A stretch of DNA of 34,367 nt from a virus. Position numbers and translations under genes: made by a program. The stretch lies in IMG/VR virus record IMGVR_UViG_3300025168_000022, positions 1 to 34,367 of that record, one strand, 5' to 3'. The notes below the pieces were generated by a model that was given only the letters and a program-made list of their open reading frames with translations, ran no database searches and was not told where the DNA came from. Of the stretch, positions 19,981-31,285 are shown in pieces (the first letter of the stretch is position 1; every line of letters begins with the position of its first letter).

Positions 19981-20376
19981 TCACACCTCGGGATTCGGGA
20001 AAGTCTGGGCCATTGCCATGCCCGTGCAGCCAGTATCCTCCAACACGCGCTGGTAGGTCTGGATATTCGTCTCGTGTTGGGCATGTTCGCGCGAAACGCG
20101 CCGCTGTTCGGCCTCTACCTCGCCTGGCTCGCACTCTCGGAGCCCGCGTTCGGCCATAAGTTGGTTTCTGTGGGCTCTACTGCGGTAAGTTGTGCCCAAG
20201 CCCCGGTCGTACCGTCCCTCCCACGCCGTATCACCCCACTTAAGGGCGGTCTTTGCCGGTGCGGAGACAAGCCTCGGGGCCTCACAGCCGCACGGGCATA
20301 GTTTGCGCTCCTCGTAGGAGCGCAAAACCTCGACTCGGTAGCCTGAACGGCGGCAGCTGTACTCGTACAGTGGCAT
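19981..20376 (-). CDS. FmdB-like zinc-ribbon protein (131 aa)
   Basis: The N-terminus MPLYEYSCRRSGY closely resembles the FmdB-type zinc ribbon (MP-x-YEY-x-C-x-x-CG), and a second metal knuckle, CPCGCEA, follows at residues 28-34. The expected second Cys of the first knuckle is Ser here (residue 11), so the site has Cys8 plus Cys28, Cys30 and Cys32. It may bind zinc with altered geometry. The remaining part is charged and helical. Small FmdB-like proteins are frequent in phage head modules, with unknown function. The ATG shares one base with the portal stop (TGATG), so it is translated with the portal gene. Confidence 0.75.
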   Translation of the reverse strand: MPLYEYSCRRSGYRVEVLRSYEERKLCPCGCEAPRLVSAPAKTALKWGDTAWEGRYDRGLGTTYRSRAHRNQLMAERGLRECEPGEVEAEQRRVSREHAQHETNIQTYQRVLEDTGCTGMAMAQTFPNPEV

Positions 20377-22070
20377 CAGATTACATCTCCGTCAGGAAGC
20401 ATCGCCCGAACCGACCCGGGCTGCGGAATCTCACCCACGCCGACACCCACCCCGCCTGGTGGGGGCGCTCCGGGGCCTGGTGGGGGCGGGGCAGCAGGGG
20501 CTGCAGGCTGCGGCGCCGGCAGGAAGTCCTCCGACAGCCCGTAGACGCGCACGACATTCTTCAGAATCACCTCGTTGGGCGTCCCGAGGGCCTGCAGCAC
20601 CGGAATCAGGTTCATCAGCTCCTGCTTTCGCACCGCCTCGGTCATCGGAGTCGCGCCTGAGTCCTCCGCGAAGTAGCCGAAGTCGCCCTTGAGGTCGTCG
20701 CTGGTGAGCACTTCGACCCTGTTGTTGAGCCGGATCATCTCACGATCGTCCCCCAGCAGCGTCGACAGCATGATGGCATAGGACTGGGCCACCTGAGAAA
20801 TCGCGGCATCGCGCTCTCTAGCCATCCGGCCGATCTCTGATGCCGAGTAAGCCGCCAGGGCGGTGATCTCCGTCGCCGTTGCCTTGGTCGCCTCGCCCCG
20901 AGTGAAGGGCGCCATGATGCTGCCGCGCGCAAAGTCGTCGTCGACCTGCTCGGTGTACCGCTGCAGCTCGGGGGGAACTGGATTGTGAGGCACCGGAGCA
21001 ATCATCCTGCGCAAGTCCTGCCCCTGCGACAGCTCGATCTCGATGAACTCGCCGTCCTGGCCTTGGGCGATCTTACTCATCGCCTCCGGGTCCAGCACAC
21101 CCTTCTCAACCATCCACTGCCGAGCAGCCCGCCGGATGCCGTTGGCCTGGAACGTGCGAATCGTGTTGACCTCAACCACCTGGTCGTAGACCCGGCGAAG
21201 GGCTGAGTACCCTCGAAGGGGCTCGTCGGGCTCGCGCGACATGTAGATCGGGACAATCGGGATGATCGGCCGGTCGCTTACCGTGCGAAACGGGATGCCG
21301 TCGAACTTCTCACCGACACCCTCAGCCCCGACATTCATGTCGATGCCGTCGAACAGGAACTCCTTGCCCTCGGCGTAGTCTGGAGACCACACCAGCAATC
21401 GGTCGTCGGTCAAGTCGTAGAACTCGACCACCAGCACGTAGTCGTCGACCGCCCTGGAGATGGGGTCTTCGTCTCGGCGCAAGGCCGGCGCGTCGTCGTC
21501 GTCGTCTTGGTAGTCGATGTACCGCTTGAACGTCCGCTTGGAGTAGTCTTTGTCGCCGTACCGGGCTCGCGCGTCCTCGATCGGGACGTAATACCGGTGG
21601 CCGACGTACCGCTGCGTCTGCCAACTGCCGGCCGCCTCATCCACAATCACGTCCCAAGGGCCGACAGGCGTTAGTTGCACGCGTCGCAGCGGGTCCTTTG
21701 CGCTGTTCGGACTGAGCTTGATCGCAGCCCAGGGGTAGATGAGAGACTGGCGAAGCGCGTCCTCCAGCTCGCGGCGAGCATCCAGCAGCCAAGCGTTCAC
21801 CACCTCCTGCGTCAGCTCCGGGTCGCCGTGACCTCGAAGGTCTGGCTTGAGCACCACCGCCGGGTCGCGAACGAACAACGAGGCCACGAACGACTCAATC
21901 AGCTCGTAAGCCCGCGAGGTCTCAATGAGCAGGTCCGCGTCGTAGGACATGTTCCGCTGCCAGTACCGCATCAGGTACGCGTTTCGCAGCCGGCGCATCT
22001 CCGGGCGCCGATCGCGCCAGTACGCTTCGTGGTCGGAGTAGATGCGGCGTACCATCTGGGGGGTCATCAT
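20376..22070 (-). CDS. Portal (head-tail connector) protein (564 aa)
   Basis: The dodecameric portal through which DNA is packaged and ejected. Length and order (between TerL and scaffold) agree with T7 gp8 (536 aa), and the sequence has the family pattern. The N-terminal helices contain YWRDRRPEMRRLRNAYL. The middle has a beta region with PWDVIVDEAAGSWQ and RPIIPIVPIYMS. A long helical stem follows (TATEITALAAYSASEIGRMARERDAAISQVAQSY), and the C-terminus is a Pro/Gly-rich tail with PPPPGPGAPPPGG. I chose the ATG at 22070 because it overlaps the TerL stop (ATGA) and has GGAG eight bases upstream; an ATG at 22085 would add five residues. Confidence 0.93.
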   Translation of the reverse strand: MMTPQMVRRIYSDHEAYWRDRRPEMRRLRNAYLMRYWQRNMSYDADLLIETSRAYELIESFVASLFVRDPAVVLKPDLRGHGDPELTQEVVNAWLLDARRELEDALRQSLIYPWAAIKLSPNSAKDPLRRVQLTPVGPWDVIVDEAAGSWQTQRYVGHRYYVPIEDARARYGDKDYSKRTFKRYIDYQDDDDDAPALRRDEDPISRAVDDYVLVVEFYDLTDDRLLVWSPDYAEGKEFLFDGIDMNVGAEGVGEKFDGIPFRTVSDRPIIPIVPIYMSREPDEPLRGYSALRRVYDQVVEVNTIRTFQANGIRRAARQWMVEKGVLDPEAMSKIAQGQDGEFIEIELSQGQDLRRMIAPVPHNPVPPELQRYTEQVDDDFARGSIMAPFTRGEATKATATEITALAAYSASEIGRMARERDAAISQVAQSYAIMLSTLLGDDREMIRLNNRVEVLTSDDLKGDFGYFAEDSGATPMTEAVRKQELMNLIPVLQALGTPNEVILKNVVRVYGLSEDFLPAPQPAAPAAPPPPGPGAPPPGGVGVGVGEIPQPGSVRAMLPDGDVI

Positions 22071-23611
22071 GTGCTGGTTCTCCATGGGAGCGCCTGGGAC
22101 TTGATCCGAGCGACCTTGCGCTCACGGATGAAGTCCTCCATGTAGCCCGCTTTGGAGTCGCGACGGTGCGAGAGCGGGGCACTACGGACACAACGATAGG
22201 CGAGCGCGAGGGACACGGCAAGGTCGTCGTGCAGCCCAGTGGGGGCTTGTGGCGTCACCTTCCGAACCTCCAGCCCGCGCAACTCCTGTAAGGTTGACTG
22301 GTCGAGCCTGAAGATGATCCCCGCCTTCACATGCTCCCGGAGGCACTCGAAGGCGTCGAGCTTGCTCCGCACCGTTGTGATCCAGGGCTTGCCGCGGGCA
22401 TTCTTCCACAACCGCTTGTACCTCAGCCGGTGAAGCTCGTTGAGAACGACGTAGCCATGGTTGTTTGCCTCGCACAGCACGAGCGCGCTGTTGTACCGGC
22501 GAGCGAGAATGGCGACCTTGGCAGCCCAGTCCACGGGCGACATCTGGTTGGACCGCTCCAAGTACACCGGCTGCATGTTCGTCAGCGACACGATCGAAAG
22601 CGCCGAGTAGTCCTGACCCACGCCGGCCGCGACGTCGACCCCCATGACGTACCCGCACTCATCCTGGGGCTCCTCGAACTCCCGCGCAGGAGAGTCGAAC
22701 CACACCATATCGATCTGGTCGAGGTCTCGCGGGTTGAAGTACGTCGACTCTCGAGTCAGAAACGCGTCGTCCAAGCAGCCCGGGTACTCGCGCTTGAACT
22801 TGTGCGTGCCGAGCGAGGCGACCTGCTGACGGCGCCACCACAACTGCGCGTCGTCCAGACCGTACCGCTCCGACAGATCTTCTTCTTCAAGGTTGCGCTC
22901 GAAGTCCTCGGGGATGCGCTCGTCACGGTACGGCTCGTGCTGCCACCACCAGTACGTGAACACAGTCCAGCCGTTGTCGGGAGCCCCCTCGATGAGGCGG
23001 TGGAAGTCGTCGCCTGGTGCGTTGACCGTGGACTCGATGATGAGCGGCCCGTTGCCGACCGTCGACATCGACTGCGCAAGCACCTCGCCCGCGTCCGTGT
23101 AGAACGCGAACTCCGACAAGTGCGCCCCGCTGAACTCGAACGAGCGCGTGCCGCCCCGACCGCCCGTCGTGAAGCTGGAGAAGCCGGCGAGGGTGTCGTT
23201 GAAGATCGTGTCCTCCGCACTGTCGACCGCGAGCTGGCGGTGCAGTGCCGAAGGCAGCTCGTGCAACCACCGACGATCCATCCGGCGTAGGTTCCGGGCT
23301 GACCGCTCGTGGAAGCTCAACACCGCATACGTCAGCGGGTTGGGGCTGGTGTACGACCGGTGGAACTGCCAGGCACGCACTGCCGTCGAGATGCCGACCT
23401 GCCGAGCCTTGATAACAATGACCCGGTTCGTCTCGTCCATCAGCTCCCACAACCGGCGCTGCGCAGCATTCGGCTCGAAGGGAACGAACTTCTGAAGCTG
23501 CTTGTGCTTGATGCGGAGCATCTGACAGAAGTGCGAGCGGTTGCCGAGCAGGGACGCGACATCTTCCCGAAGGTGCGCCGGGACTGTGTCGGGGACGTAG
23601 GGCTCGGTCAC
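22067..23611 (-). CDS. terL: Terminase large subunit, TerL (514 aa, GTG start)
   Basis: The DNA-packaging motor: an ATPase that translocates DNA into the capsid and a nuclease that cuts the concatemer. The ATPase domain shows a Walker A-like KARQVGIST near residues 68-76, a Walker B-like segment ending at Glu167 (HLSEFAF), and the ESTVN coupling motif near 193. The RNase H-like nuclease domain shows Asp326 (MGVDVAAG), Glu381 (LCEANNHG) and Asp462/Asp463 (LHDDLAVSLALA), the expected three acidic positions. The start is a GTG that overlaps the stop of the preceding small gene (GTGA), so it is probably translationally coupled. The tail overlaps the portal start. Confidence 0.96.
   Translation of the reverse strand: MTEPYVPDTVPAHLREDVASLLGNRSHFCQMLRIKHKQLQKFVPFEPNAAQRRLWELMDETNRVIVIKARQVGISTAVRAWQFHRSYTSPNPLTYAVLSFHERSARNLRRMDRRWLHELPSALHRQLAVDSAEDTIFNDTLAGFSSFTTGGRGGTRSFEFSGAHLSEFAFYTDAGEVLAQSMSTVGNGPLIIESTVNAPGDDFHRLIEGAPDNGWTVFTYWWWQHEPYRDERIPEDFERNLEEEDLSERYGLDDAQLWWRRQQVASLGTHKFKREYPGCLDDAFLTRESTYFNPRDLDQIDMVWFDSPAREFEEPQDECGYVMGVDVAAGVGQDYSALSIVSLTNMQPVYLERSNQMSPVDWAAKVAILARRYNSALVLCEANNHGYVVLNELHRLRYKRLWKNARGKPWITTVRSKLDAFECLREHVKAGIIFRLDQSTLQELRGLEVRKVTPQAPTGLHDDLAVSLALAYRCVRSAPLSHRRDSKAGYMEDFIRERKVARIKSQALPWRTST
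22080..22083 (-). promoter_or_regulatory. Ribosome-binding site deciding the portal start
   Basis: GGAG on the minus strand lies inside the end of TerL, spaced to suit the ATG at 22070 (8-9 bases). The earlier ATG at 22085 overlaps this site and has none of its own. Confidence 0.6.
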
Positions 23612-23832: not shown

Positions 23833-23996
23833 GTGGCCTCCAACTTATTTGTAACACACGCGCACTTGGATTGGGCTCCCAAGGGGTGGTAGCGAGGGAC
23901 CCGGCATCCGGGGGGTCCCCCCTCCTGGGTCGCACCCGCACCCGCGCCTGCACGCACGCGCCCGCGCACCCACCCGCGTAACGCGCGCCCGCGTAG

Positions 23997-24013
23997 GCAC
24001 GTGATTGACGTGC
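23997..24013. promoter_or_regulatory. Inverted repeat GCACGT-5-ACGTGC
   Basis: Perfect 6-bp arms separated by GATTG, directly left of the large double hairpin. The spacing and symmetry suit an operator for a dimeric regulator, for example one of the phage-encoded HTH or ribbon-helix-helix proteins, but no binding data can be read from sequence. Confidence 0.45.
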
Positions 24014-24017
24014 TGGC

Positions 24018-24074
24018 GCACCTTCTCGCTACGGGTGCAGGGTCTACGGGCTACCCTGCACCTTGAGAAGGTGC
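24018..24074. repeat. Double-arm inverted repeat (57-bp potential cruciform)
   Basis: The outer arms GCACCTTCTC (24018-24027) and GAGAAGGTGC (24065-24074) are perfectly complementary over 10 bp. The inner arms GGTGCAGGGT (24034-24043) and ACCCTGCACC (24053-24062) are also perfect over 10 bp, with a 9-base loop. Small asymmetric internal loops of 6 and 2 bases separate the two stems. The inner arm carries the GGGTGCAGGGT element that recurs to the right. It could be an origin hairpin, a cruciform, or an RNA structure; there is no T-run, so a terminator is unlikely. Confidence 0.85.
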
Positions 24075-24127
24075 TGGTCATGGGGCTTCTCCCCTTTCGG
24101 GTGCAGGGTGCAGGGTACATTAGATAT

Positions 24128-24144
24128 TAGTGGAGTAATCACTA
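24128..24144. promoter_or_regulatory. Operator-like palindrome TAGTG-7-CACTA
   Basis: Perfect 5-bp arms with a 7-base spacer in the AT-rich pocket (TACATTAGATATTAG lies just left). Five bases separate it from the second palindrome. The location between two repeat blocks suggests a regulator site close to a promoter. Confidence 0.4.
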
Positions 24145-24148
24145 CACA

Positions 24149-24167
24149 GAATGAATGGCATTCATTC
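24149..24167. promoter_or_regulatory. 19-bp perfect palindrome, operator-like
   Basis: GAATGAATG, a central G, and CATTCATTC are perfectly symmetric with 9-bp arms. Such compact AT-leaning palindromes are typical of operators bound by small dimeric repressors. The phage encodes an HTH protein (30547) and a ribbon-helix-helix candidate (26961) that could bind it. It lies about 235 bp before the first early ATG. Confidence 0.55.
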
Positions 24168-24225
24168 CGAGAGGTGAAGGGGGCGAAAAGTCCAAGGCAC
24201 CCCGCACCCTGCACCCACCTGGTTC

Positions 24226-24246
24226 ACCTACTGACGGGTAGGTTTT
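24226..24246 (+). terminator. Short hairpin with T-run in the early leader (attenuator-like)
   Basis: ACCTAC (24226-24231) pairs with GTAGGT (24238-24243) around a 6-base loop, and the stem runs directly into TTTT (24243-24246). It would lie in the 5' leader of the early transcript if transcription starts at the AT-rich pocket. The stem is short, so only partial termination or attenuation is expected. Confidence 0.35.
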
Positions 24247-24392
24247 GGCGAGAAGCACGACCAGCACGGGCGAGCAGGACACCCACCCCAAACAGTCTCA
24301 GAAAAACCTTCCCACCACCCAGCGGTACATGCTACACCACTGGTGCCAGCCGTACCAACCGACCCAACGGCACCCAGCGACCCAGCCAACCC

Positions 24393-24399
24393 AGGACAC
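24393..24399 (+). promoter_or_regulatory. AGGACAC ribosome-binding site
   Basis: AGGACAC followed by ACA and the ATG at 24403. This is the first of six identical sites that precede the early genes lacking start/stop overlap. It decides the start of the 85-aa gene against an upstream GTG/ATG option. Confidence 0.7.
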
Positions 24400-24402
24400 A
24401 CA

Positions 24403-24660
24403 ATGACCCTCGCCACAACACACAGTCGCCACAGCAACAGCCACCAGTGGGCGGCGCTCGCCCACCCTGACGGGGCATGGTTTCTGAACGGCACACCCTG
24501 CCGACTCGTCGGTATCCTTGGCTGCGGTTCCGGTGTCTGGCATGCCGACGTTTGGCCAGATGAGCGCCCCACCACATGCCAGCTGGATGCAGCTGCACGC
24601 CTTGGCCTTACCGTCCGCATCTGCGACGAGGTGACAGTGGAGCACGCCTTGCGATCCTGA
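24403..24660 (+). CDS. First early gene, unknown function (85 aa)
   Basis: An 85-residue protein beginning MTLATTHSRHSNSHQWAAL, with Cys/Gly-rich middle (GTPCRLVGILGCGSGVWHADVW) and a helical C-terminal part. I do not recognise a family, and there is no membrane segment. As the first gene after the control region it is likely made earliest, so an anti-host or anti-defence role is conceivable but only inferred from position. The ATG at 24403 is chosen for its AGGACAC site. Its TGA stop forms part of stem I of the first hammerhead ribozyme. Confidence 0.65.
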   Translation: MTLATTHSRHSNSHQWAALAHPDGAWFLNGTPCRLVGILGCGSGVWHADVWPDERPTTCQLDAAARLGLTVRICDEVTVEHALRS

Positions 24661-24711
24661 GTAGCTGACGAGACCGGAAGGTCGAAACGTCCCACACGGG
24701 ACGTCCTACTC
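24659..24711 (+). ncRNA. Hammerhead ribozyme, type I, copy 1
   Basis: Stem I is GAGTAG (24659-24664) with CTACTC (24706-24711). The core CTGACGA is at 24665-24671. Stem II is GACC with GGTC (24672-24675, 24680-24683) closed by a GGAA tetraloop. Then comes GAA (24684-24686). Stem III is ACGTCCC with GGGACGT (24687-24693, 24698-24704), with loop ACAC. C24705 is the cleavage nucleotide, so cleavage is expected between 24705 and 24706. Every invariant core base of the hammerhead is present (CUGANGA, GAA, the A-U pair at the base of stem III, and H=C). Stem I is open, so it is type I. The 5' strand starts inside the TGA of the upstream gene; the downstream product begins with a 23-base leader carrying AGGACAC. 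Confidence 0.93.
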
Positions 24712-24718
24712 TCACAAG

Positions 24719-24725
24719 AGGACAC
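24719..24725 (+). promoter_or_regulatory. AGGACAC ribosome-binding site after ribozyme 1
   Basis: Located 13 bases downstream of the predicted cleavage point and four bases before the ATG at 24729. The AGAGG part can pair with CCUUG before stem I in the uncleaved RNA, so cleavage might expose it. Confidence 0.65.
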
Positions 24726-24728
24726 ACA

Positions 24729-25094
24729 ATGCCTACCAAGAACCAGCAATTTGCCTCCCTTGCATCACTGCACCGCAACCCAGACACGGCCGACGGAGCC
24801 CGCATCTACCGCGCCCTTCGTCGCATCGAGTGCCGCATGTCACGGGCTGCAGAAGATGCCTGCACTCCGCGCGGTGCATCCCGTTACGCCGAGCTGGAAC
24901 GCGTTGCCGAGAACCAGGTGATGAATTTGTTCGGTCGAGTGCTACCCGTTGACGGATTCTTCTGCAATGGAGACCCCCGCGGGTACGCTTTGAAGCTGTG
25001 CAACGATGCAGTCACCATCCCTGAGGGCATGGCTACGGATTGGGGTGGCTACGGCATCCTTGCGCCCGAACCTTCTACGCTCCGGGGTGCGTGA
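24729..25094 (+). CDS. Early protein of unknown function (121 aa)
   Basis: A 121-residue helical, mildly basic protein starting MPTKNQQFASLASLHRNPDTADG. Cys residues occur at C35, C44, C79 and C90; they are not in a clear zinc-finger spacing. The middle (AELERVAENQVMNLFGRVLPVDGFF) looks like a helix pair. I do not recognise it. It is the first gene after ribozyme 1 and would begin the cleaved message. Its TGA overlaps the next ATG by one base (TGATG), linking it to the 110-aa and 94-aa genes in a three-gene cassette bounded by the two ribozymes. Confidence 0.7.
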   Translation: MPTKNQQFASLASLHRNPDTADGARIYRALRRIECRMSRAAEDACTPRGASRYAELERVAENQVMNLFGRVLPVDGFFCNGDPRGYALKLCNDAVTIPEGMATDWGGYGILAPEPSTLRGA

Positions 25095-25426
25095 TGGAAG
25101 CCGTCGAGATCAAAGGCGCCCCCTGCGTTTCCATCTCCATCCGTCTGCGGTACGATCGCAACGGCAACAAGTTCTACCGGGTACAGCTCGCGGCGCATGG
25201 AGGTGGCAAGCGTTTCGGCTGTGCTGCCTTCAACCCCATGAAGGTTAACGCCTCTAGCACAACACCTAACGAGGCTCTTGAAGCCTACGTGTCTCGTATC
25301 GTGGAGGCTGTTGGCGCGTCCACTTGGTGGTCTGGCCCTTGGGTCCTGGCGTACTCAGGCCAGCAAAAGAGCGGCAGCCACCGCCTGCCTTGCTGGGTGG
25401 CTATCTCTATGGGGGGTGTGCAATGA
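25094..25426 (+). CDS. Early protein of unknown function (110 aa)
   Basis: A 110-residue protein beginning MEAVEIKGAPCVSISIRLRYDRNG. The first half is beta-rich (VSISIRLRYD, KFYRVQLAAHGG) and the second has a helix (TPNEALEAYVSRIVEAVGAS). It has no membrane segment and no recognised motif. The start at 25094 is chosen because it shares a base with the preceding stop (TGATG) and avoids an upstream extension in the same frame. It is the second gene of the ribozyme-bounded cassette. The ATGA overlap with the next gene suggests coupled translation. Confidence 0.7.
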   Translation: MEAVEIKGAPCVSISIRLRYDRNGNKFYRVQLAAHGGGKRFGCAAFNPMKVNASSTTPNEALEAYVSRIVEAVGASTWWSGPWVLAYSGQQKSGSHRLPCWVAISMGGVQ

Positions 25427-25707
25427 CCGCGCTTGCCTTCAATCTCCGGCACACCGATACCCACGTTCAGTATGCATTGTGTGACTGTTGCAGCGCTGGC
25501 GTCGCCAATGACGACTGGACCCACTTGGACGCACAGCCCGAGATGGCCGACGAGAACCACGCGCGCATCGGTGGAACCCTTGAGCTTCTCGGGTGGCTGA
25601 CACCACTCAGCCCGTACGACCCGGGAGGGTACTGGACGTGCGAGATTTGCTGGGAGACCTGCATAGGCTCGGGGCAGGTCTGGGAGGGTGAACGCAGGCG
25701 CGGGTAG
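25423..25707 (+). CDS. Early Cys-rich protein, possible zinc binder (94 aa)
   Basis: A 94-residue protein with two cysteine knuckles, CDCC near residues 19-22 and CEIC-x3-C near residues 74-81, that could bind one zinc ion. Between them lies a stretch with LGWLTPLSPYDPGGYWTCE. I do not recognise the family; small zinc proteins in early regions often bind host proteins or nucleic acids, but that is inference. The start is an ATGA overlap with the previous gene. Its TAG stop lies within stem I of the second hammerhead ribozyme, exactly as the stop of the 85-aa gene lies in ribozyme 1. Confidence 0.7.
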   Translation: MTALAFNLRHTDTHVQYALCDCCSAGVANDDWTHLDAQPEMADENHARIGGTLELLGWLTPLSPYDPGGYWTCEICWETCIGSGQVWEGERRRG

Positions 25708-25755
25708 CTGACGAGGTCGGAAGACCGAAACGTCCCATCCAGGGACGTCCTACCC
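25702..25755 (+). ncRNA. Hammerhead ribozyme, type I, copy 2
   Basis: Stem I is GGGTAG (25702-25707) with CTACCC (25750-25755). The core CTGACGA is at 25708-25714. Stem II is GGTC with GACC (25715-25718, 25723-25726), with a GGAA loop. GAA is at 25727-25729. Stem III is ACGTCCC with GGGACGT (25730-25736, 25742-25748), with loop ATCCA. C25749 is the cleavage nucleotide, so cleavage is expected between 25749 and 25750. Compared with copy 1, stem II shows A-U changed to G-C and C-G changed to U-A, and stem I shows A-U changed to G-C. All these changes keep pairing, while the core and stem III are identical. This covariation is strong evidence for a selected RNA structure. The TAG of the upstream gene forms the 3' half of the first stem I strand. 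Confidence 0.93.
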
Positions 25756-25762
25756 TAACCAA

Positions 25763-25769
25763 AGGACAC
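25763..25769 (+). promoter_or_regulatory. AGGACAC ribosome-binding site after ribozyme 2
   Basis: Located 13 bases after the predicted cleavage point, as in ribozyme 1, and two bases before the ATG at 25772. The conserved distance between cleavage point and ribosome site in the two copies suggests that ribozyme and leader form one unit. Confidence 0.65.
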
Positions 25770-25771
25770 AC

Positions 25772-26020
25772 ATGAACACCCCTTGGAATACCCCGGCAGA
25801 ACTGCGCTCGGCGCTTCTTCTCGACTTACTCGACCGGTGGGAGATTCACTGCGACGAAACCCCGGTATCCGGTGGTCGCTTTCGCTGGGATGAGAACGCC
25901 CGCGAAGCACTGCACGCCGCCGGTCCAGAAGCTCCGGCCGTCGTGTCGGTAGAACGTCTTCTCGCCATGGCGTGCGAGTACCTGACTCGCTTCCCCTCCG
26001 ACCGTGGGAACGCAGCATGA
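25772..26020 (+). CDS. Early protein of unknown function (82 aa)
   Basis: An 82-residue, mildly acidic, mostly helical protein starting MNTPWNTPAELRSALLLDLLDRWE. The middle has a short beta turn (ETPVSGGRFRWDENARE) and the end a helix (SVERLLAMACEYLTRF). No motif is recognised. It is the first gene after ribozyme 2. Its stop overlaps the ATG of a 30-residue membrane protein (ATGA). Confidence 0.7.
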   Translation: MNTPWNTPAELRSALLLDLLDRWEIHCDETPVSGGRFRWDENAREALHAAGPEAPAVVSVERLLAMACEYLTRFPSDRGNAA

Positions 26021-26109
26021 ACCGCCACGAACGAGACTTCATCGAGAGCGCGTGCGGGGCTATCGTGCTCGGCGCTTTCATCTTCTTCCTGATGTCGCTG
26101 CCTTGCTGA
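26017..26109 (+). CDS. Tiny single-membrane-segment protein (30 aa)
   Basis: Reading from the ATG that overlaps the previous stop (ATGA) gives 30 codons: a polar, charged start (MNRHERDFIES) followed by a continuous hydrophobic segment (AIVLGAFIFFLMSLP) and a terminal Cys. Length and composition fit a single-pass inner-membrane microprotein. It is too short for usual gene finders. Tight start/stop coupling supports it being real. Function unknown; early small membrane proteins of phages may alter host membrane processes or exclude other phages. Confidence 0.55.
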   Translation: MNRHERDFIESACGAIVLGAFIFFLMSLPC

Positions 26110-26378
26110 ACAGCCACGCCCGTGCGGCCCGTCGTCTGAACCAGCTGGTCGGGCGGCGGGCTTCTGCCGGCTACCTCTTCGTCGGTCCAGTCGTGGCTGG
26201 CTGGCTTCCTGTTCGCCTCTCGGGCCGCACGGCTACCGGCGTGCGCTGGCTTGCCATGTCCGGTCGCGCTCGCTTTCGCTGGACTCCTCCGCGCGCATGG
26301 TCGACCGCGTGTGAGAACCTGACACCGTCCGAGCTTGACCAGCTCACCCAAGAGTTCTGGAGGTCGTCGTGCCAGTAG
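26103..26378 (+). CDS. Basic early protein, start uncertain (about 91 aa)
   Basis: The frame is open from a GTG at 26004 but overlaps the previous two genes there; the most economical start is the TTG at 26103, overlapping the end of the 30-aa gene. The product is Arg/Leu/Ala-rich (NSHARAARRLNQLVGRRASAG), with one hydrophobic stretch (YLFVGPVVAGWLPV) and a helical end (TPSELDQLTQEFW). No family is recognised. A clear GGAGG for the following gene lies inside its last codons. The start choice is weak because no good ribosome site precedes the TTG. Confidence 0.45.
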   Translation: MLNSHARAARRLNQLVGRRASAGYLFVGPVVAGWLPVRLSGRTATGVRWLAMSGRARFRWTPPRAWSTACENLTPSELDQLTQEFWRSSCQ

Positions 26379-26974
26379 CTTTGTACATCGACAGCACGCG
26401 CGGACCCTACCCGGTGCATGTGGGCCAGGCCCTTACGTCTGCAATGGACGCCGAGCACGACGCGCGCACGTATGACGGCCCGCTCGCGGTTGTCGCTCAC
26501 CCTCCTTGCAAGGACTGGGGCAGCTTCGCACACTGGTCGCTACCCGATGCCGACCGCAAGTCCTGCGGTCCTCGCGCGGTCGCTCAAGTGCGGGCGTTCG
26601 GAGGTGTGCTCGAACATCCTGCCCGCTCGCGGTTGTGGATTGAATGCGGACTACCCCGCCCGGGCGAACTGCCCGACAGCCACGGGGGCTGGACACTGGA
26701 GGTCAACCAGTGCGACTGGGGACACCCGGCCCGCAAGAAGACGTGGCTGTACATCGCGGGTGTGGCCCCGCACGAACTGCCCCCCATCCCTCCAGCCCGA
26801 GAGCCTACACACGTCATCGCACCATCGAAGACACCACAGGCGCGGGCTGCTGCCCGTGGCCGACACATCCCAAAGAGCCAACGACACCTGACACCACCAG
26901 CATTCGCCTCGTGGTTGATTGAACTTGCAACGCGCGTCGAGCGCAACCGGAGCACACACCATGTCCACATCTGA
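26369..26974 (+). CDS. Methyltransferase-like protein (201 aa, GTG start)
   Basis: A 201-residue protein with the segment AHPPCKDWGSFAHW near residue 43 and EHPARSRLW near residue 82. These resemble motif IV (PPC, the catalytic cysteine loop) and a following motif of cytosine-C5-type methyltransferases. A third stretch, CDWGHPARKKTWLYI, also recurs in phage proteins of this kind. A canonical SAM-binding motif I (FxGxG) is not evident, so it may be a degenerate or distinct base-modifying enzyme. The GTG start has a GGAGG five bases upstream. Its end overlaps the next gene by 14 bases. DNA modification against host restriction is a plausible but unproved role. Confidence 0.55.
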   Translation: MPVALYIDSTRGPYPVHVGQALTSAMDAEHDARTYDGPLAVVAHPPCKDWGSFAHWSLPDADRKSCGPRAVAQVRAFGGVLEHPARSRLWIECGLPRPGELPDSHGGWTLEVNQCDWGHPARKKTWLYIAGVAPHELPPIPPAREPTHVIAPSKTPQARAAARGRHIPKSQRHLTPPAFASWLIELATRVERNRSTHHVHI

Positions 26975-27197
26975 CGTCCGTCCTCGCATCCCTGCTTCCC
27001 TCGCTCAGCTGCTACGCACCGCTGCAGCCCTCCACCAGTGCCCCACGATCGGCGCGTACCTCGATACTGTTGTGCGTCCTATGGTACGAGCTGACATCGC
27101 CCGGCTACTCTCGACCGACCCGACCCTGGACCTGGCCGCCCCGCCTGCGCCCGAGGTTGTGGTTCCGACCGCGGCTGTGGAATGGAGCGCGAAGTGA
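26961..27197 (+). CDS. Ribbon-helix-helix-like small protein (78 aa)
   Basis: A 78-residue protein with a core reading RPRIPASLAQLLRTAAALHQ, then TIGAYLDTVVRPMVRADIA. One short strand followed by two helices, the second starting at a position like those of plasmid and phage ribbon-helix-helix regulators, is the expected pattern. The C-terminal part is Pro/Val-rich and probably disordered. It precedes the primase-helicase gene, whose start overlaps its stop. It could regulate the early operon, possibly at the palindromes in the divergent region. The family assignment is by pattern only. Confidence 0.5.
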   Translation: MSTSDVRPRIPASLAQLLRTAAALHQCPTIGAYLDTVVRPMVRADIARLLSTDPTLDLAAPPAPEVVVPTAAVEWSAK

Positions 27198-29470
27198 ATC
27201 AAGACAGCCGAGTTGCGCGGGTGTGGCCGACCGCCCCGCCCGACCTGACCTACGTGCAGCAGACCCTGACGGGTGGCACCTACATCTCGACCGGGCTGTT
27301 CCGCCCCAACCAGGTGGACGCTCGCGGTCGTGGCCGCACGATGGAGAATGTGCGCAGGGTCACGTCCCTGTTCTTCGACATCGATCTGCTCGGGCTGTAC
27401 GATGCCGCGCGTGTGGCTCGTGGCACCGTGCTCGAGACCAAGGTGGCTGACCGCAAGGCCAAGCTGTACGCCGAGAAGCCCGCGGTTGTGGCTGCGTTCC
27501 GCAGGCTGATGCGCAACGAGTTCCTGGGCATCATCGAGGACGTGGTGGGCCAGCCCCCAACCCTGGTCATCGACTCGGGCTGGGGCTACCACGCTCACTA
27601 CGCCATCGCCCACGAGATGCAGGCCGAGAAGGTCGCCCTGCGTGGCATCGCTGCCGCCATCATCGACGAGGCCAACCGTCGGGCTGCTGACCGTGCTCGA
27701 ACCATGACGCCGCCCCTGCTGTACGACTGCGCCTTCGACCCGACCCACGATGTCGGCGCCCGGCTCGCCCGTATGCCCGGGACCCTGAACACCAAGTGCC
27801 CCGAGCAGCACCGCAACGTCGAGGTTGTGGCGTCCAGCCCGACAGCCCTCGACCAGGAGGCGCTGCTGTACCTCCAGCGGGAGTACGTGCGGCAAGCACA
27901 GCTCCCCAACAACGAGGCACCCACGGGTGTCGACGTACCCTCGCCCGCCCGACCCAAGCAGTCGCGGTCCATCGACGCGGACTTCCGCTCGATGTCCCTG
28001 CCCGACGGTCGAGGCTGGCAGCAGATTGCATTGAACTTGGCCCCCGGCGACCGCCTGAAGGTTGTGTGTCCGTTTGGCGGATCGACCGTGGGGTCAGGTT
28101 TCTTTGCCTGCGAACCTGATGGGAGGGTGCGCTACTACAGCGGCCCGACCGACACGACGTACTGGAACACGTACACGGCCCCGGCTCGGCTGGGTCGGGC
28201 TGACCTCGTGCGAGGCCCCGACAAGAAGGGTGTGCCCGGCCCCATCCTGAAGACCATCACCAACCTGCTGCGCATGTTCCGAGACGACGAGCAATTCAGC
28301 CTCTGGTACGACAGCTTCAGCGAGCGGGAGATGGACGGTAGCCGGCAGCTGGCAGACACGGATTGGATTCGAGTGCTGTCGCACATGGAGCTGGTCTACC
28401 AGTGGAACTGGCGGCCCGGGAAGGACCAGGTCTTCAGCATCATGGAGTACATCTGCAAGGAGAACACCCGCAACCCCGTGCGCGACTACATGGATGGGCT
28501 GGTGTGGGACGGCGTGCCTCGCATGGACCGCTGGCTGACCGAGGTGTGCCACGTCGAGGACAGTGAGCTGCACCGGACCTACTCGCGGAAGTGGCTCATC
28601 GGTGTGATGGCTCGGCTGTACCTGCCGGGTTCGAAGAACGATTGTAGCCTCCAGTTAGTTGGGGCTCAGGGGTTCGGGAAAAGCACCGTGTTCCGGGCGT
28701 GGGTCGACATCGAGGGGCTGCCCGGCCTGTTTACCGATAGCCGCATCAACCTGAAGGATAAGGACAGCTATATGACGCTGTATAGCTGCCTTATATTCGA
28801 GGACCAAGAGGCAGCCAGCCTTTCCGGCAACCACTACCAAGCGCACAAGGCGTTCATGAGCAGCCAGGAGGACCGGTTCCGCAAGCCCTTCGGGCGCAAG
28901 GTCGAGACCTTCAAGCGGCACACCGTCATCGTCTCTACCTCCAACGAGGTGTCCACCCTGCGCGACCCCTCGGGCGACAGGCGCTGGTGGTGCGTGAGGG
29001 TTCCCGACCGCAAGCACGCCAACCTCGACTGGCTGCGGCAGTGGCGTGACCAACTGTGGGGCGAGGCGGTCGTGGCCTTCAAGTCGGGCGAGGCGTGGTG
29101 GCTCGACCGTGCGCAGGATGCGCAGCGCGCTGTCGCCAACAACGACTTTCGCTACCACGACTGGTACACGCAGTGCGCGCACGTCGTTGCTGCTGCCAAC
29201 GGGGGGGGCCGCAAGAACGGCTTCACCGTCGGACAGTTTGCCAAGGCGATCGATGAGCGCATCGACATGTACCGGGCCGGTCGGAAGCTGTCCGCTGCAC
29301 TCCAGAGCGCAGGCTTCCAGCGGCTTAGGTCCCACGGGGTCACGACCTACTTCACCGAAGGCGAACACCGCCACAACGACAACGGGCTGCTGTCCATCCA
29401 AGGACTCACCCGCACCTCGGCCACTATTCAAGCGGTCGTGGGCCACTGGTCCGACGACATCGCACGCTGA
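27194..29470 (+). CDS. PrimPol-VirE-type primase/helicase (758 aa)
   Basis: A two-part replication protein. The N-terminal archaeo-eukaryotic primase domain shows motif I FFDID (residues about 60-64), motif II SGWGYHAHY (128-136) and motif III DPTHDVGARLARMPGTLNTK (182-201), whose end is the family's RxPGTxN-type signature. A degenerate zinc-like region follows (CPFGGSTVGSGFFAC). The C-terminal VirE-type ATPase has Walker A GAQGFGKST (490-498), Walker B LIFEDQ (533-538), and an arginine-rich segment STLRDPSGDRRWW (587-599). It would prime and unwind DNA, and may also synthesise it. The start is the GTG at 27194, which overlaps the previous stop (GTGA) and has GGAG upstream; an ATG at 27182 would add four residues. 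It lies directly before ERF. Confidence 0.92.
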   Translation: MNQDSRVARVWPTAPPDLTYVQQTLTGGTYISTGLFRPNQVDARGRGRTMENVRRVTSLFFDIDLLGLYDAARVARGTVLETKVADRKAKLYAEKPAVVAAFRRLMRNEFLGIIEDVVGQPPTLVIDSGWGYHAHYAIAHEMQAEKVALRGIAAAIIDEANRRAADRARTMTPPLLYDCAFDPTHDVGARLARMPGTLNTKCPEQHRNVEVVASSPTALDQEALLYLQREYVRQAQLPNNEAPTGVDVPSPARPKQSRSIDADFRSMSLPDGRGWQQIALNLAPGDRLKVVCPFGGSTVGSGFFACEPDGRVRYYSGPTDTTYWNTYTAPARLGRADLVRGPDKKGVPGPILKTITNLLRMFRDDEQFSLWYDSFSEREMDGSRQLADTDWIRVLSHMELVYQWNWRPGKDQVFSIMEYICKENTRNPVRDYMDGLVWDGVPRMDRWLTEVCHVEDSELHRTYSRKWLIGVMARLYLPGSKNDCSLQLVGAQGFGKSTVFRAWVDIEGLPGLFTDSRINLKDKDSYMTLYSCLIFEDQEAASLSGNHYQAHKAFMSSQEDRFRKPFGRKVETFKRHTVIVSTSNEVSTLRDPSGDRRWWCVRVPDRKHANLDWLRQWRDQLWGEAVVAFKSGEAWWLDRAQDAQRAVANNDFRYHDWYTQCAHVVAAANGGGRKNGFTVGQFAKAIDERIDMYRAGRKLSAALQSAGFQRLRSHGVTTYFTEGEHRHNDNGLLSIQGLTRTSATIQAVVGHWSDDIAR

Positions 29471-29480
29471 CAACAACAAG

Positions 29481-29487
29481 AGGACAC
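29481..29487 (+). promoter_or_regulatory. AGGACAC ribosome-binding site before ERF
   Basis: AGGACAC lies three bases before the ATG at 29491, in a 20-bp gap after the primase-helicase gene. Confidence 0.65.
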
Positions 29488-29490
29488 ATC

Positions 29491-30150
29491 ATGGAACTGT
29501 TTGAACAATCCGACAACGTGAACGAGCTGTACAAAGCACTTGCCACCGCCCAGTCAATGCTGGGTCGGGCCGACAAGGACGGCAAGAACCCGCACTACCG
29601 CTCCCGCTACGCCACACTCACCTCGGTTATCGAGGCAGTACGCCCAGTCTTTGCCGAGCACGGGCTGTCCATCCAGCAGCACCCGCACTTCGACGACGGC
29701 ATGGTCAGCCTCACCACCGTCATTGGCCACGCCTCGGGGCAGTGGACCCGGTCGGTCGCCTCGGTCCCCATCGGCAAGAAGGCGGACAGCCACGCCTTCG
29801 GCTCGTGCGTCAGCTACCTGCGACGCTACAGCTTGGCCTCGGTCGCCTGCCTCGTGCAGGACGACGACGACGGCAACCAGGTCGCACACATCCAGCAGCG
29901 CCGACAGCCCGCGGCCCCTGCCCAGCCGGCCGCCAAGCCGCTCGACTACGACGAGCTTGCCCGTCAGGTCACAAGCCACGACGTCACCTACGAGGAGCTG
30001 TTCGCGTGGTGCGACGCCCACGGTCGAGGCGACCCCGCCCGCTACAACCGTGGACGGCAGCAGCAGCTGCTCGCATGGCTGAGCAAGGGCGGTGCGAACA
30101 CCGTGCAGCAGTGGGCCATCGACAACGCATTGGCTGGGGGTGAGGGATGA
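29491..30150 (+). CDS. ERF-family single-strand annealing recombinase (219 aa)
   Basis: A clear ERF-type single-strand annealing protein. The signature block is intact: GKNPHYRSRYATL (31-43), EHGLSIQQH (56-64), SLTTVIGHASGQW (73-85), and the diagnostic GSCVSYLRRYSLASVACLVQDDDDGN (104-129). ERF forms rings on single strands and anneals homologous DNA during replication-recombination. The C-terminal third is a Pro/Gln/Ala-rich linker followed by a helical domain. Neighbours include SSB, a PD-(D/E)XK nuclease and a RuvC-like protein, giving a complete recombination set in this early block. The ATG is preceded by AGGACAC. Length is typical for the family. Confidence 0.95.
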   Translation: MELFEQSDNVNELYKALATAQSMLGRADKDGKNPHYRSRYATLTSVIEAVRPVFAEHGLSIQQHPHFDDGMVSLTTVIGHASGQWTRSVASVPIGKKADSHAFGSCVSYLRRYSLASVACLVQDDDDGNQVAHIQQRRQPAAPAQPAAKPLDYDELARQVTSHDVTYEELFAWCDAHGRGDPARYNRGRQQQLLAWLSKGGANTVQQWAIDNALAGGEG

Positions 30151-30422
30151 GTGACTACGTAAAGCACAAAAGCCCGTGGCTGCCCGGCATGATGGTCATA
30201 GACCATGGCCGCTCGCGACGCGGCAGGGTGCATAGCTTTCTGACAGGGTCGTCAGGGGACTTCTTGGTCTGCATCAGTTCGGGAGCACTCGGCTCGACCA
30301 CCCTGCTTCATGGTCTCGCGAACTGGTCTGTGGAGGTTGGCAACTGGCTGTCTGCCGACATCAGCGATGAGACCACCCGCCGGCTGATGGACAGCCTCAA
30401 GGCCGACGGGGGTGCAAAGTGA
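30147..30422 (+). CDS. Early protein of unknown function (91 aa)
   Basis: A 91-residue protein reading MSDYVKHKSPWLPGMMVIDHGRSRRGRV at its N-terminus. It has a beta-rich core (VHSFLTGSSGDFLVCISSG) with a KOW/SH3-like feel and a helical end. There is no clear family. The ATG overlaps the ERF stop (ATGA) and its own stop overlaps a GTG of the next small gene, so it is translated along with ERF. A role linked with recombination is only suggested by that coupling. Confidence 0.65.
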   Translation: MSDYVKHKSPWLPGMMVIDHGRSRRGRVHSFLTGSSGDFLVCISSGALGSTTLLHGLANWSVEVGNWLSADISDETTRRLMDSLKADGGAK

Positions 30423-30550
30423 CCCGGTCACACGTTGCCCTTCTCATCCTTACCCTCGCCCTCGGCCGTTGCAGCTACGAGGCAGGCCTCCGCAAGGGCT
30501 CCGAGGATGGCTGGTGGTCGTGCATGGCTGAACACGGGGAGGTCGCATGA
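30419..30550 (+). CDS. Tiny exported or membrane protein (43 aa, GTG start)
   Basis: The frame runs from a GTG overlapping the previous stop (GTGA) to a stop that overlaps the next ATG (ATGA). The N-terminal stretch RSHVALLILTLALGRCSYEAG looks like a short signal or membrane segment followed by a Cys in a lipobox-like place (LALGRC). The remainder is short, polar and Trp-containing (SEDGWWSCMAEHGEVA). A membrane-anchored microprotein is the best reading. It resembles Rz1-like lipoproteins in shape, but lies in the early block and has no Pro-rich tail, so that call is not made. Confidence 0.5.
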   Translation: MTRSHVALLILTLALGRCSYEAGLRKGSEDGWWSCMAEHGEVA

Positions 30551-30777
30551 GCCCCGGACAAGTCATGTTCCGAGCCGTCTGCGCTCGTCTGGGTCTCGAC
30601 CCTGAAGCCCGGGGCACCTTCACCAAGGTGGTCGACGAAGGCCGCCGCCTTGGCCTTTGCCATCACTCAAACTTGTCCAAGTGGGCAACCGGTCAAGCGC
30701 ACCCAAGCCGGCGGAAGATGCGCCAGTTTGAAGAGGCCTTTGGGTTTCGCCTGGTGACCACGTGGGAGGTCGCGTGA
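30547..30777 (+). CDS. Small helix-turn-helix protein, XRE-like (76 aa)
   Basis: A 76-residue basic protein. The stretch GLCHHSNLSKWATGQAHPS (residues about 36-54) fits the second half of an XRE/Cro-type helix-turn-helix: a recognition helix with an LSKWATG pattern and a Pro-Ser after it, followed by RRKMRQFEEAFGF. It is a candidate DNA-binding regulator, for example for the palindromes at 24128-24167. It shares ATGA overlaps with both neighbours. No dimerisation domain is visible, so other DNA-binding roles are possible. Confidence 0.6.
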   Translation: MSPGQVMFRAVCARLGLDPEARGTFTKVVDEGRRLGLCHHSNLSKWATGQAHPSRRKMRQFEEAFGFRLVTTWEVA

Positions 30778-30857
30778 GCGCCTTTCTCATCGGGTCAGTG
30801 TGTGCATTCATGCTCGGCTACATGCTCGGCTATTCGTTTGGGAAGGCTTCCCAATGA
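30774..30857 (+). CDS. Tiny membrane protein (27 aa, GTG start)
   Basis: Reading from a GTG overlapping the previous stop (GTGA), with a GGAGG site upstream, gives 27 codons: a hydrophobic segment with a repeated FMLGY/YMLGY motif (CAFMLGYMLGYSFGK) and a polar end. It ends exactly at an ATGA overlap with the next ATG. The GxxxG-like spacing of glycines suits helix packing in a membrane. It is too short for usual gene finders, and the tight coupling supports it. Confidence 0.55.
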   Translation: MSAFLIGSVCAFMLGYMLGYSFGKASQ

Positions 30858-31285
30858 CCGCAATCGAACCGCCCGCACCCGACGCACCCGCCGAGGAATG
30901 GGGGGCGTTCGCCACTCGGATTCCCGACTGGCGCTGGCCCTGGACGTGTTCTGTCCTTTTGTCCTTTTGCCCTTCGCTGCCGGGGTACGTGTGGCTTGAA
31001 GGGGAGTGGCGCTACACGGACGACATCAGCCCAGTCGCGCGGTGGTCGAGGATTCGAGCCATTCCCGACCCCGATCACTGGGCCTGGGAGGGGTGGCTGT
31101 TGCGGCTCATCGGGGATGAGCGTTGGCGCATAGACTTAGACTATGTGGGCGAGTGGTCATTCTGGGTGAACGGGCCGCCCGAAACTCATGGGACCGGGCA
31201 CCTCAACCATGTGGGTGAGTCTCTCGGACGCGCGTGCATCGCCGCCGCCGCCTCCCTCGGCAAGTGGCCTGGAGGTGAGGGATGA
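30854..31285 (+). CDS. Trp-rich protein of unknown function (143 aa)
   Basis: A 143-residue protein starting MTAIEPPAPDAPAEEWGAFATRIPDW. It has an unusual number of tryptophans (over ten) with beta-like stretches (YVWLEGEWRYTDDISP, RIDLDYVGEWSFWV) and a helical C-terminal end. There is no membrane segment or recognised family. The ATG at 30854 is chosen because it overlaps the previous stop (ATGA); a longer reading overlaps the small membrane gene. Tryptophan content is unlike its neighbours. Confidence 0.65.
   Translation: MTAIEPPAPDAPAEEWGAFATRIPDWRWPWTCSVLLSFCPSLPGYVWLEGEWRYTDDISPVARWSRIRAIPDPDHWAWEGWLLRLIGDERWRIDLDYVGEWSFWVNGPPETHGTGHLNHVGESLGRACIAAAASLGKWPGGEG

Follow-up and report, generated by a model that had tools for sequence, protein, structure and literature searches.

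The presence of hammerhead ribozymes that flank single genes or short gene blocks in prophages has been known since 2011, when, in the part of that study covered here, a processing of phage transcripts into operon- or gene-length mRNAs was proposed, cleavage was seen for three arrays in vitro and for one in E. coli, and neither circular nor spliced products were reported (Perreault et al., 2011; PMC3088659). Equally, a 2017 review, as far as its text was covered, calls the function of hammerheads in prokaryotes and phages an open question (PMC6155905). The present analysis concerns the IMG/VR virus record IMGVR_UViG_3300025168_000022, the whole of which (34,367 bases) is referred to as the window, and in particular two type I hammerhead ribozymes, HHR1 and HHR2, in its early, rightward gene block. 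As an earlier note made from this DNA had claimed, the two ribozymes bracket a three-gene cassette. Both ribozymes probably cut the early mRNA into separate gene units, and ribozyme-made mRNA ends fit the layout of stop codon and hairpin described below better than the gating of cleavage by translation that the same note had put forward.

The type I hammerhead core reads CUGANGA followed at a distance by GAAA, with the cut 3' of H17 beside the A15.1-U16.1 pair. This core is present in both copies together with three complete stems and a GUC cut site. In HHR1, stem I (GAGTAG/CTACTC) encloses the core CTGACGA, stem II (GACC-GGAA-GGTC), GAAA and a stem III with an ACAC loop, while in HHR2 stem I is GGGTAG/CTACCC and stem II GGTC-GGAA-GACC. 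The three stems, open at stem I, are kept by compensatory change: over the five ribozyme junctions of this phage and of L064, an 11 kb contig and the only close relative found, all counted cells of the 17 pairs are standard pairs and 6 of the 17 pairs have changed on both sides. Folded alone (53 and 54 nucleotides, nt), the hammerhead is the minimum free energy as well as the centroid structure of HHR1 and HHR2, and equally good folds were obtained from 3 of 200 shuffles for HHR1 and from 0 of 200 for HHR2 (8 of 200 for each copy with short flanks, 82 and 85 nt). Furthermore, a covariance model built on 41 hammerheads from other viral contigs, with this phage and its relative left out, gives 49.3 bits for HHR1 (E 1.3e-13) and 46.3 bits for HHR2 (E 1.3e-12), the next best match in the window reaching 12.7 bits.

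Some results weigh against this assignment. An Rfam scan of the whole window returned nothing at E up to 1, and the scores under the cut-offs amount for HHR1 to 20.2 bits with RAGATH-1 (cut-off 56.3) and 16.6 bits with the type I family RF00163 (gathering cut-off 34 bits), and for HHR2 to 23.2 bits with HH9 (cut-off 52). In a 101-nt context the minimum free energy structure of HHR2 is a competing fold in which the cut-site region pairs with AGGAC, and HHRc, the last ribozyme of the L064 block, equally adopts a competing fold in 96 nt. The covariation score over the 41 phage ribozymes (0.857 versus 0.17 in shuffles) is partly circular because the descriptor selects for pairing, the collection scan itself having demanded merely a loose stem II pattern. 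Taken with the complete anatomy, the compensatory changes and the model scores, HHR1 and HHR2 are nevertheless confirmed as type I hammerhead ribozymes.

The relation of both ribozymes to the genes around them is regular. The upstream stop codon forms part of the first strand of stem I in both copies, as the earlier note had seen; its wording that the ribozymes start inside stop codons is literally right for HHR1, where stem I begins at the G of the TGA, whereas in HHR2 the stem I strand ends in the TAG. Within 11 bases, HHR1 has a stop in each of the three frames (TGA-G-TAG-C-TGA), a set that by eye HHR2 does not have. On the downstream side, 13 bases lie between the cut and AGGACAC in both copies, again as had been noted, and the exact sequence AGGACACACA occurs three times in the window, once before each of three gene units and nowhere else.

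Building on the observed anatomy, covariation, position and relatives, we infer from the sequence that HHR1 and HHR2 act in cis and cut the polycistronic early RNA of the phage where genes adjoin. After the cut, the upstream mRNA would end with its stop codon followed directly by the stem II and stem III hairpins and a 2',3'-cyclic phosphate, while the downstream mRNA would carry a 5'-OH and a short standard leader with AGGACACAC at its end. The early RNA would be divided into three units, namely the gene for 85 amino acids (aa), the cassette with its three overlapping genes and the rest, each beginning with nearly the same ribosome-binding site (RBS) leader as the first gene; this division, which the earlier note had proposed, is borne out as a layout, with cleavage in this phage as a prediction. 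According to this proposal, stop and stem I overlap because the upstream mRNA has the ribozyme itself as its 3' end. The benefits would probably be protection of the 3' ends by hairpins, separate lifetimes of the units and independence of the cassette from the preceding gene, besides any regulatory effect. On balance, processing of the early RNA at its junctions, with the ribozyme as the 3' end of the upstream mRNA, is regarded as rather probable.

The layout was followed through a wider collection. A loose pattern scan of viral contigs, which demanded core, stem II loop and GAAAC and left stems I and III unconstrained, gave at least 119 stretches. Among the matches listed, 106 of 116 with full flanks complete a hammerhead (82 type I, 24 type III), compared with 12% when flanks were swapped and 1% when they were shuffled; 14 of 144 pattern matches, the window and its copies L001 and L002 counted, have no fold, at least 3 of them close to a contig end. 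Without these two copies and identical ribozymes, 111 distinct type I and 37 type III ribozymes are left. Because an earlier flank filter had removed almost nothing (110 left), they were clustered by 800-nt context into 58 type I and 29 type III clusters, which are the counts to trust.

In 42 of the 58 independent type I contexts the upstream stop ends -10 to +4 nt from the core C, a range into which 2.3% of random positions fall. Uniform placement of the ribozymes in the same gaps would put 21.7 ± 3.2 of 54 at the stop, and 40 are seen there. The stop occurs in several registers (-8, -7, -5, -4, 0 and +4), the commonest of which, -4, 0 and +4, represent three different frames; at +4 the UGA of the core is itself the stop (18 of 110 cases). 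Near the core, two or three frames contain a stop in 67 of 110 type I ribozymes, versus about 30 expected from shuffles. Newly fetched viral loci show 18 of 22 type I ribozymes at a stop, several being relatives of the first set, and genome contigs 4 of 5, a count that holds the near-duplicates L137/L141 and the doubtful fold L131. Among 13 further sites, all from relatives of the first set, 8 lie in the -10 to +4 range (the offset of -9 at L125:10464 was read by eye), 3 at +14 and 2 far away, with L124:1583, which repeats an L102 site, left out. In this phage and L064 all five ribozymes overlap a stop. The stop overlap is thus systematic among type I phage hammerheads and not peculiar to this phage.

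Type III ribozymes, some of which share contigs with type I, follow another arrangement. In the 26 clusters with an upstream gene called, the stop lies 30-53 nt before the ribozyme in 17, 10 nt before it in 1, 184-759 nt before it in 6 and inside or past it in 2. Between stop and ribozyme a strong hairpin is often found; where the stop lies 8-60 nt upstream (18 cases), the hairpin before the cut has a median of -20 kcal/mol (z -4.2). The 40 nt before the cut reach z < -2 in 18 of 29 type III clusters and in 9 of 19 genome-contig cases, the two controls being segments ahead of type I ribozymes (4 of 58) and segments that follow stops in gaps without a ribozyme (25 of 150). Past the cut, type I leaves a short, open leader (median -3.4 kcal/mol, n = 44) and type III a structured one (-17.3 kcal/mol, n = 17). 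The notion that cleavage frees the RBS as a general rule was rejected, the RBS becoming more open (>0.2) in 5 and less open in 3 of 33 clusters.

A third arrangement was reached through a weak match (E 0.2) to Streptomyces phage Pablito, at which the junction proved to be a type II hammerhead (53.9 bits, Rfam cut-off 37). Six cultured R4-like Streptomyces phages carry 46 type II ribozymes above the Rfam cut-off, within about 12 kb each (R4 9, Animus 9, Marav 8, Amethyst 7, Hank144 7 and Pablito 6). When the 8 of 46 with an annotated coding sequence over or within the ribozyme are set aside, the stop ends -16 to +1 of the ribozyme start in 27 of 38, overlapping it in one; 5 others lie at -41 to -44, 2 at -23/-24 and 4 beyond -250. 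The Pablito junction matches 52 phage records, all from Streptomyces and with duplicates among them, 26 of which cover at least 80%.

Other collections of ribozymes came to light alongside. L071 (record G002, 39.8 kb), L121, L076, L103 and L102 have 7-14 model matches each at E up to 0.1, mostly type I and some type III. A first pattern search of genome contigs gave no match. In the genome contigs L127-L146, type III hammerheads make up most of the folds, their phage or cellular origin being unclear; 12 of these 20 contigs are titled Patescibacteria or candidate phyla of that group, and by eye a GC-rich hairpin often stands directly before the cut and TTCTTT after it.

The stems left on the upstream RNA are II and III in type I, III in type II and neither in type III, where the hairpins of the ribozyme go to the downstream RNA and the extra hairpin before the cut is often present. 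The outcome common to the three permutations, an upstream RNA ending in stop and hairpin, points to the formation of mRNA ends. On the other hand, several observations speak against this reading. The upstream hairpin follows from topology in types I and II, so that only type III tests the rule, and 11 of 29 type III upstream segments depart from it; in the type III ribozyme of L026 the called stop is the TGA of the core itself. Sixteen of the 58 type I contexts fall outside the -10 to +4 range, the gene calls stem from a home-made caller, and the type I overlap is due in part to a small element being simply packed into a compact genome. Put forward tentatively, and with more doubt than confidence, is the broader idea that early regions are built of self-excising units, in which each cassette is capped by a portable module of stop, ribozyme and leader, often with two or three frames closed by stop codons, so that any gene block could be plugged in; all three permutations would tend to leave stop and hairpin upstream and a standard leader downstream, type III by virtue of its added hairpin.

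Packing might also be the whole explanation, with a ribozyme role unrelated to the stop and an overlap devoid of function. Genes in these genomes are close or overlapping (median gap 2 nt without a ribozyme, n = 1882), gaps with a ribozyme (median 77 nt, n = 159) are little longer than ribozyme plus RBS, and the core can supply the UGA used as stop. In this phage, with open reading frames (ORFs) chosen by hand, no gap at the 18 early junctions exceeds 22 nt apart from the ribozyme gaps of 68 and 64 nt, in agreement with the earlier note, but the automatic gene caller, which omits or shortens some short ORFs, produces further wide gaps after 30422, so that the claim depends on the choice of ORFs in that part. 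The excess at the stop over uniform placement in the same gaps is at odds with mere compaction, as is the extra hairpin of about 30-50 nt in many type III gaps, which packing does not predict; compaction as the sole reason for the overlap is accordingly possible but rather unlikely.

An exchange of cassettes at conserved stop-to-start ribozyme junctions, which would make these junctions recombination modules, is suggested by the comparison with L064. The VapE-like protein of the two is 95% identical, the flanking DNA 88-94% and the non-coding leader upstream of the early block 86%, and the homology breaks off right at the ATG (24403) and returns at 26015. Between these points the L064 block reads [81 aa] HHRa [72, 66 aa] HHRb [113, 113 aa] HHRc [100 aa], and the sole gene of the window block with a clear relative in it is that of PHROG 7225 (55% aa identity), the last before HHRc. 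The five stop-to-start segments of the two genomes nonetheless align (79-87% by blastn), with 35/49 to 44/49 identical bases between pairs of ribozymes and 3-12 matches in the 27 nt upstream; the segments align while neighbouring genes differ, which means that the genes beside the ribozymes turned over and the junctions stayed. Equally, L071 and L121 differ by one gene exactly between two ribozymes. The near-identical flanks had led the earlier note to expect loss or exchange of the cassette, and with three such ribozymes and mostly different genes between them L064 agrees with it to this extent. However, the outer breakpoints of the block (24403 and 26015) are not at ribozymes, window and L064 have no match either in the ribozyme-free stretches 26362-26949 and 30151-31269, and another break between L071 and L121, at 3234/3407, lies apart from any ribozyme. 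Across 13 families, ribozyme junctions show no excess of breakpoints (30 of 384 versus 31.8 expected; with one pair per family 9 of 55 versus 7.3), and the ribozymes as a recombination hot spot were discarded. With one relative, single-cassette exchange cannot be told from replacement of the whole block. Recombination as the reason for the layout is considered unlikely. By eye, the end of the 85-aa gene (VEHALRS, 24620-24657) recurs near the end of the protein before HHRb (L064 4130-4171), and the HHR1 leader equals the HHRb leader over 15/15 nt, a possible trace of cassette deletion or exchange.

The earlier note had seen in the stop overlap a gate: a ribosome terminating at the stop would cover stem I and core and block folding, so that cleavage would report or await translation of the upstream gene. 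The footprint of a ribosome at a terminating stop would span the stem I and core positions, and for type I ribozymes, with stops at -10 to +4 of the core in most contexts and in every junction of this phage and L064, gating is geometrically possible. For gating, however, the stop must lie within or next to the ribozyme, which does not fit type III, with 17 of 26 stops at 30-53 nt; type II stops mostly end 0-16 nt ahead, and those of type I are spread over many registers instead of one. A terminating ribosome would, moreover, block stem I only briefly per round, which we infer to be a delay and not a gate. The note had itself named ribozymes away from stops in relatives as contrary evidence, and this is found in most type III and type II ribozymes and in 16 of 58 type I contexts, though in this phage and L064 all five ribozymes overlap a stop. 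As the purpose of the layout, translation gating is thus unsupported and judged improbable. Least credible by far is that tandem cuts release a 1044-nt cassette RNA which is then circularised in retrozyme- or viroid-like fashion, since, for all that the segment lies between two hammerheads on the same strand, the block contains three genes, the first of them behind a clear RBS, no retroelement is among the 8 and 10 ORFs scanned, and spliced or circular products of such arrays were sought and, in the text covered, not found (Perreault et al., 2011; PMC3088659).

Formation of mRNA ends by the ribozymes thus stands as the preferred reading of a locus whose features are listed in Table 1. Positions 24000-29500 have no DNA match in a collection of cultured phages, and a tblastn search with the 569-aa ORF (20376-22085) gave none either. 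The 85-aa ORF has no match in Pfam or PHROG, and cassette gene 1 no PHROG match and no Pfam match above cut-off. For the 94-aa protein, a peptide search in viral contigs confirmed no relatives; in this phage as in L064 it adjoins the last ribozyme, and phage records from Gordonia and Mycobacterium have relatives of PHROG 7225 close to their right end. Between 23500 and 27200 a promoter scan found 0 sites versus 0.5 expected, and terminator-like sites number 7 versus 1.9 expected, with 0 at the ribozymes. The non-coding leader (23860-24403), largely kept in L064, contains the inverted repeats 24099-24124/24191-24216 and 24139-24157/24159-24177 and is perhaps an origin or operator.

Table 1. Features of the early block around the two hammerhead ribozymes, in window coordinates.
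Feature	Positions	Strand	Remarks
AGGACACACA, RBS leader of the first gene of the block	24393-24402	+	exact match; without ribozyme
85-aa ORF	24403-24660	+	first gene of the early rightward block
HHR1, type I hammerhead ribozyme	24659-24711	+	predicted cut 24705/24706, after C24705; first two bases overlap stop TGA 24658-24660
AGGACACACA, leader and RBS of unit 2	24719-24728	+	exact match
Cassette gene 1, 121 aa	24729-25094	+	without known family
Cassette gene 2, 110 aa	25094-25426	+	one-base overlap with gene 1
Cassette gene 3, 94 aa	25423-25707	+	PHROG 7225 (unknown function); 4-base overlap with gene 2
HHR2, type I hammerhead ribozyme	25702-25755	+	predicted cut 25749/25750, after C25749; stop TAG 25705-25707 is the 3' half of the stem I strand
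AGGACACACA, leader and RBS of unit 3	25763-25772	+	last A is the A of ATG
82-aa ORF	25772-26020	+	first gene of unit 3

A self-cleaving ribozyme ahead of an RBS, which gives a defined 5' leader, is familiar from insulators of the RiboJ type; these resemble the present junctions in this order of elements, but are engineered and not placed at a stop codon. Close to it among natural systems are the prophage arrays described in 2011, with which this locus shares at least two hammerheads flanking a short phage gene block, whereas the text covered of that work has neither a layout rule by ribozyme type nor a type III companion hairpin, and the terms 'stop codon', 'Streptomyces', 'upstream gene', 'termination' and 'ribosome' have 0 occurrences in its main text (Perreault et al., 2011; PMC3088659). 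A regular layout at stop codons across many phages seems unreported: in searches of the open-licence literature, none of them aimed at phage R4, stop-codon layout, type III companion hairpin and R4 arrays were not found, which, with subscription papers outside that scope, speaks only weakly for their absence. Retrozymes and viroid-like circular RNAs share hammerhead cleavage and several ribozymes on one RNA, as described in the portions covered, but among the proteins scanned here there is no sign of a retroelement or of RNA replication (PMC7761336; PMC4918200). The R4-like phages with their Hammerhead_II arrays (RF02276) parallel this phage in that a ribozyme stands at many gene junctions of actinophage early regions, with the next annotated start often about 10-20 nt past the ribozyme end, and differ in the type II permutation, in a stop usually 0-16 nt before the ribozyme and in a density of 6-9 copies per 12 kb. 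With a regular layout at hand and such arrays in the early regions of six cultured Streptomyces phages, among them R4, the host of which is given as S. coelicolor A3(2), the function of hammerheads in phages becomes directly testable.

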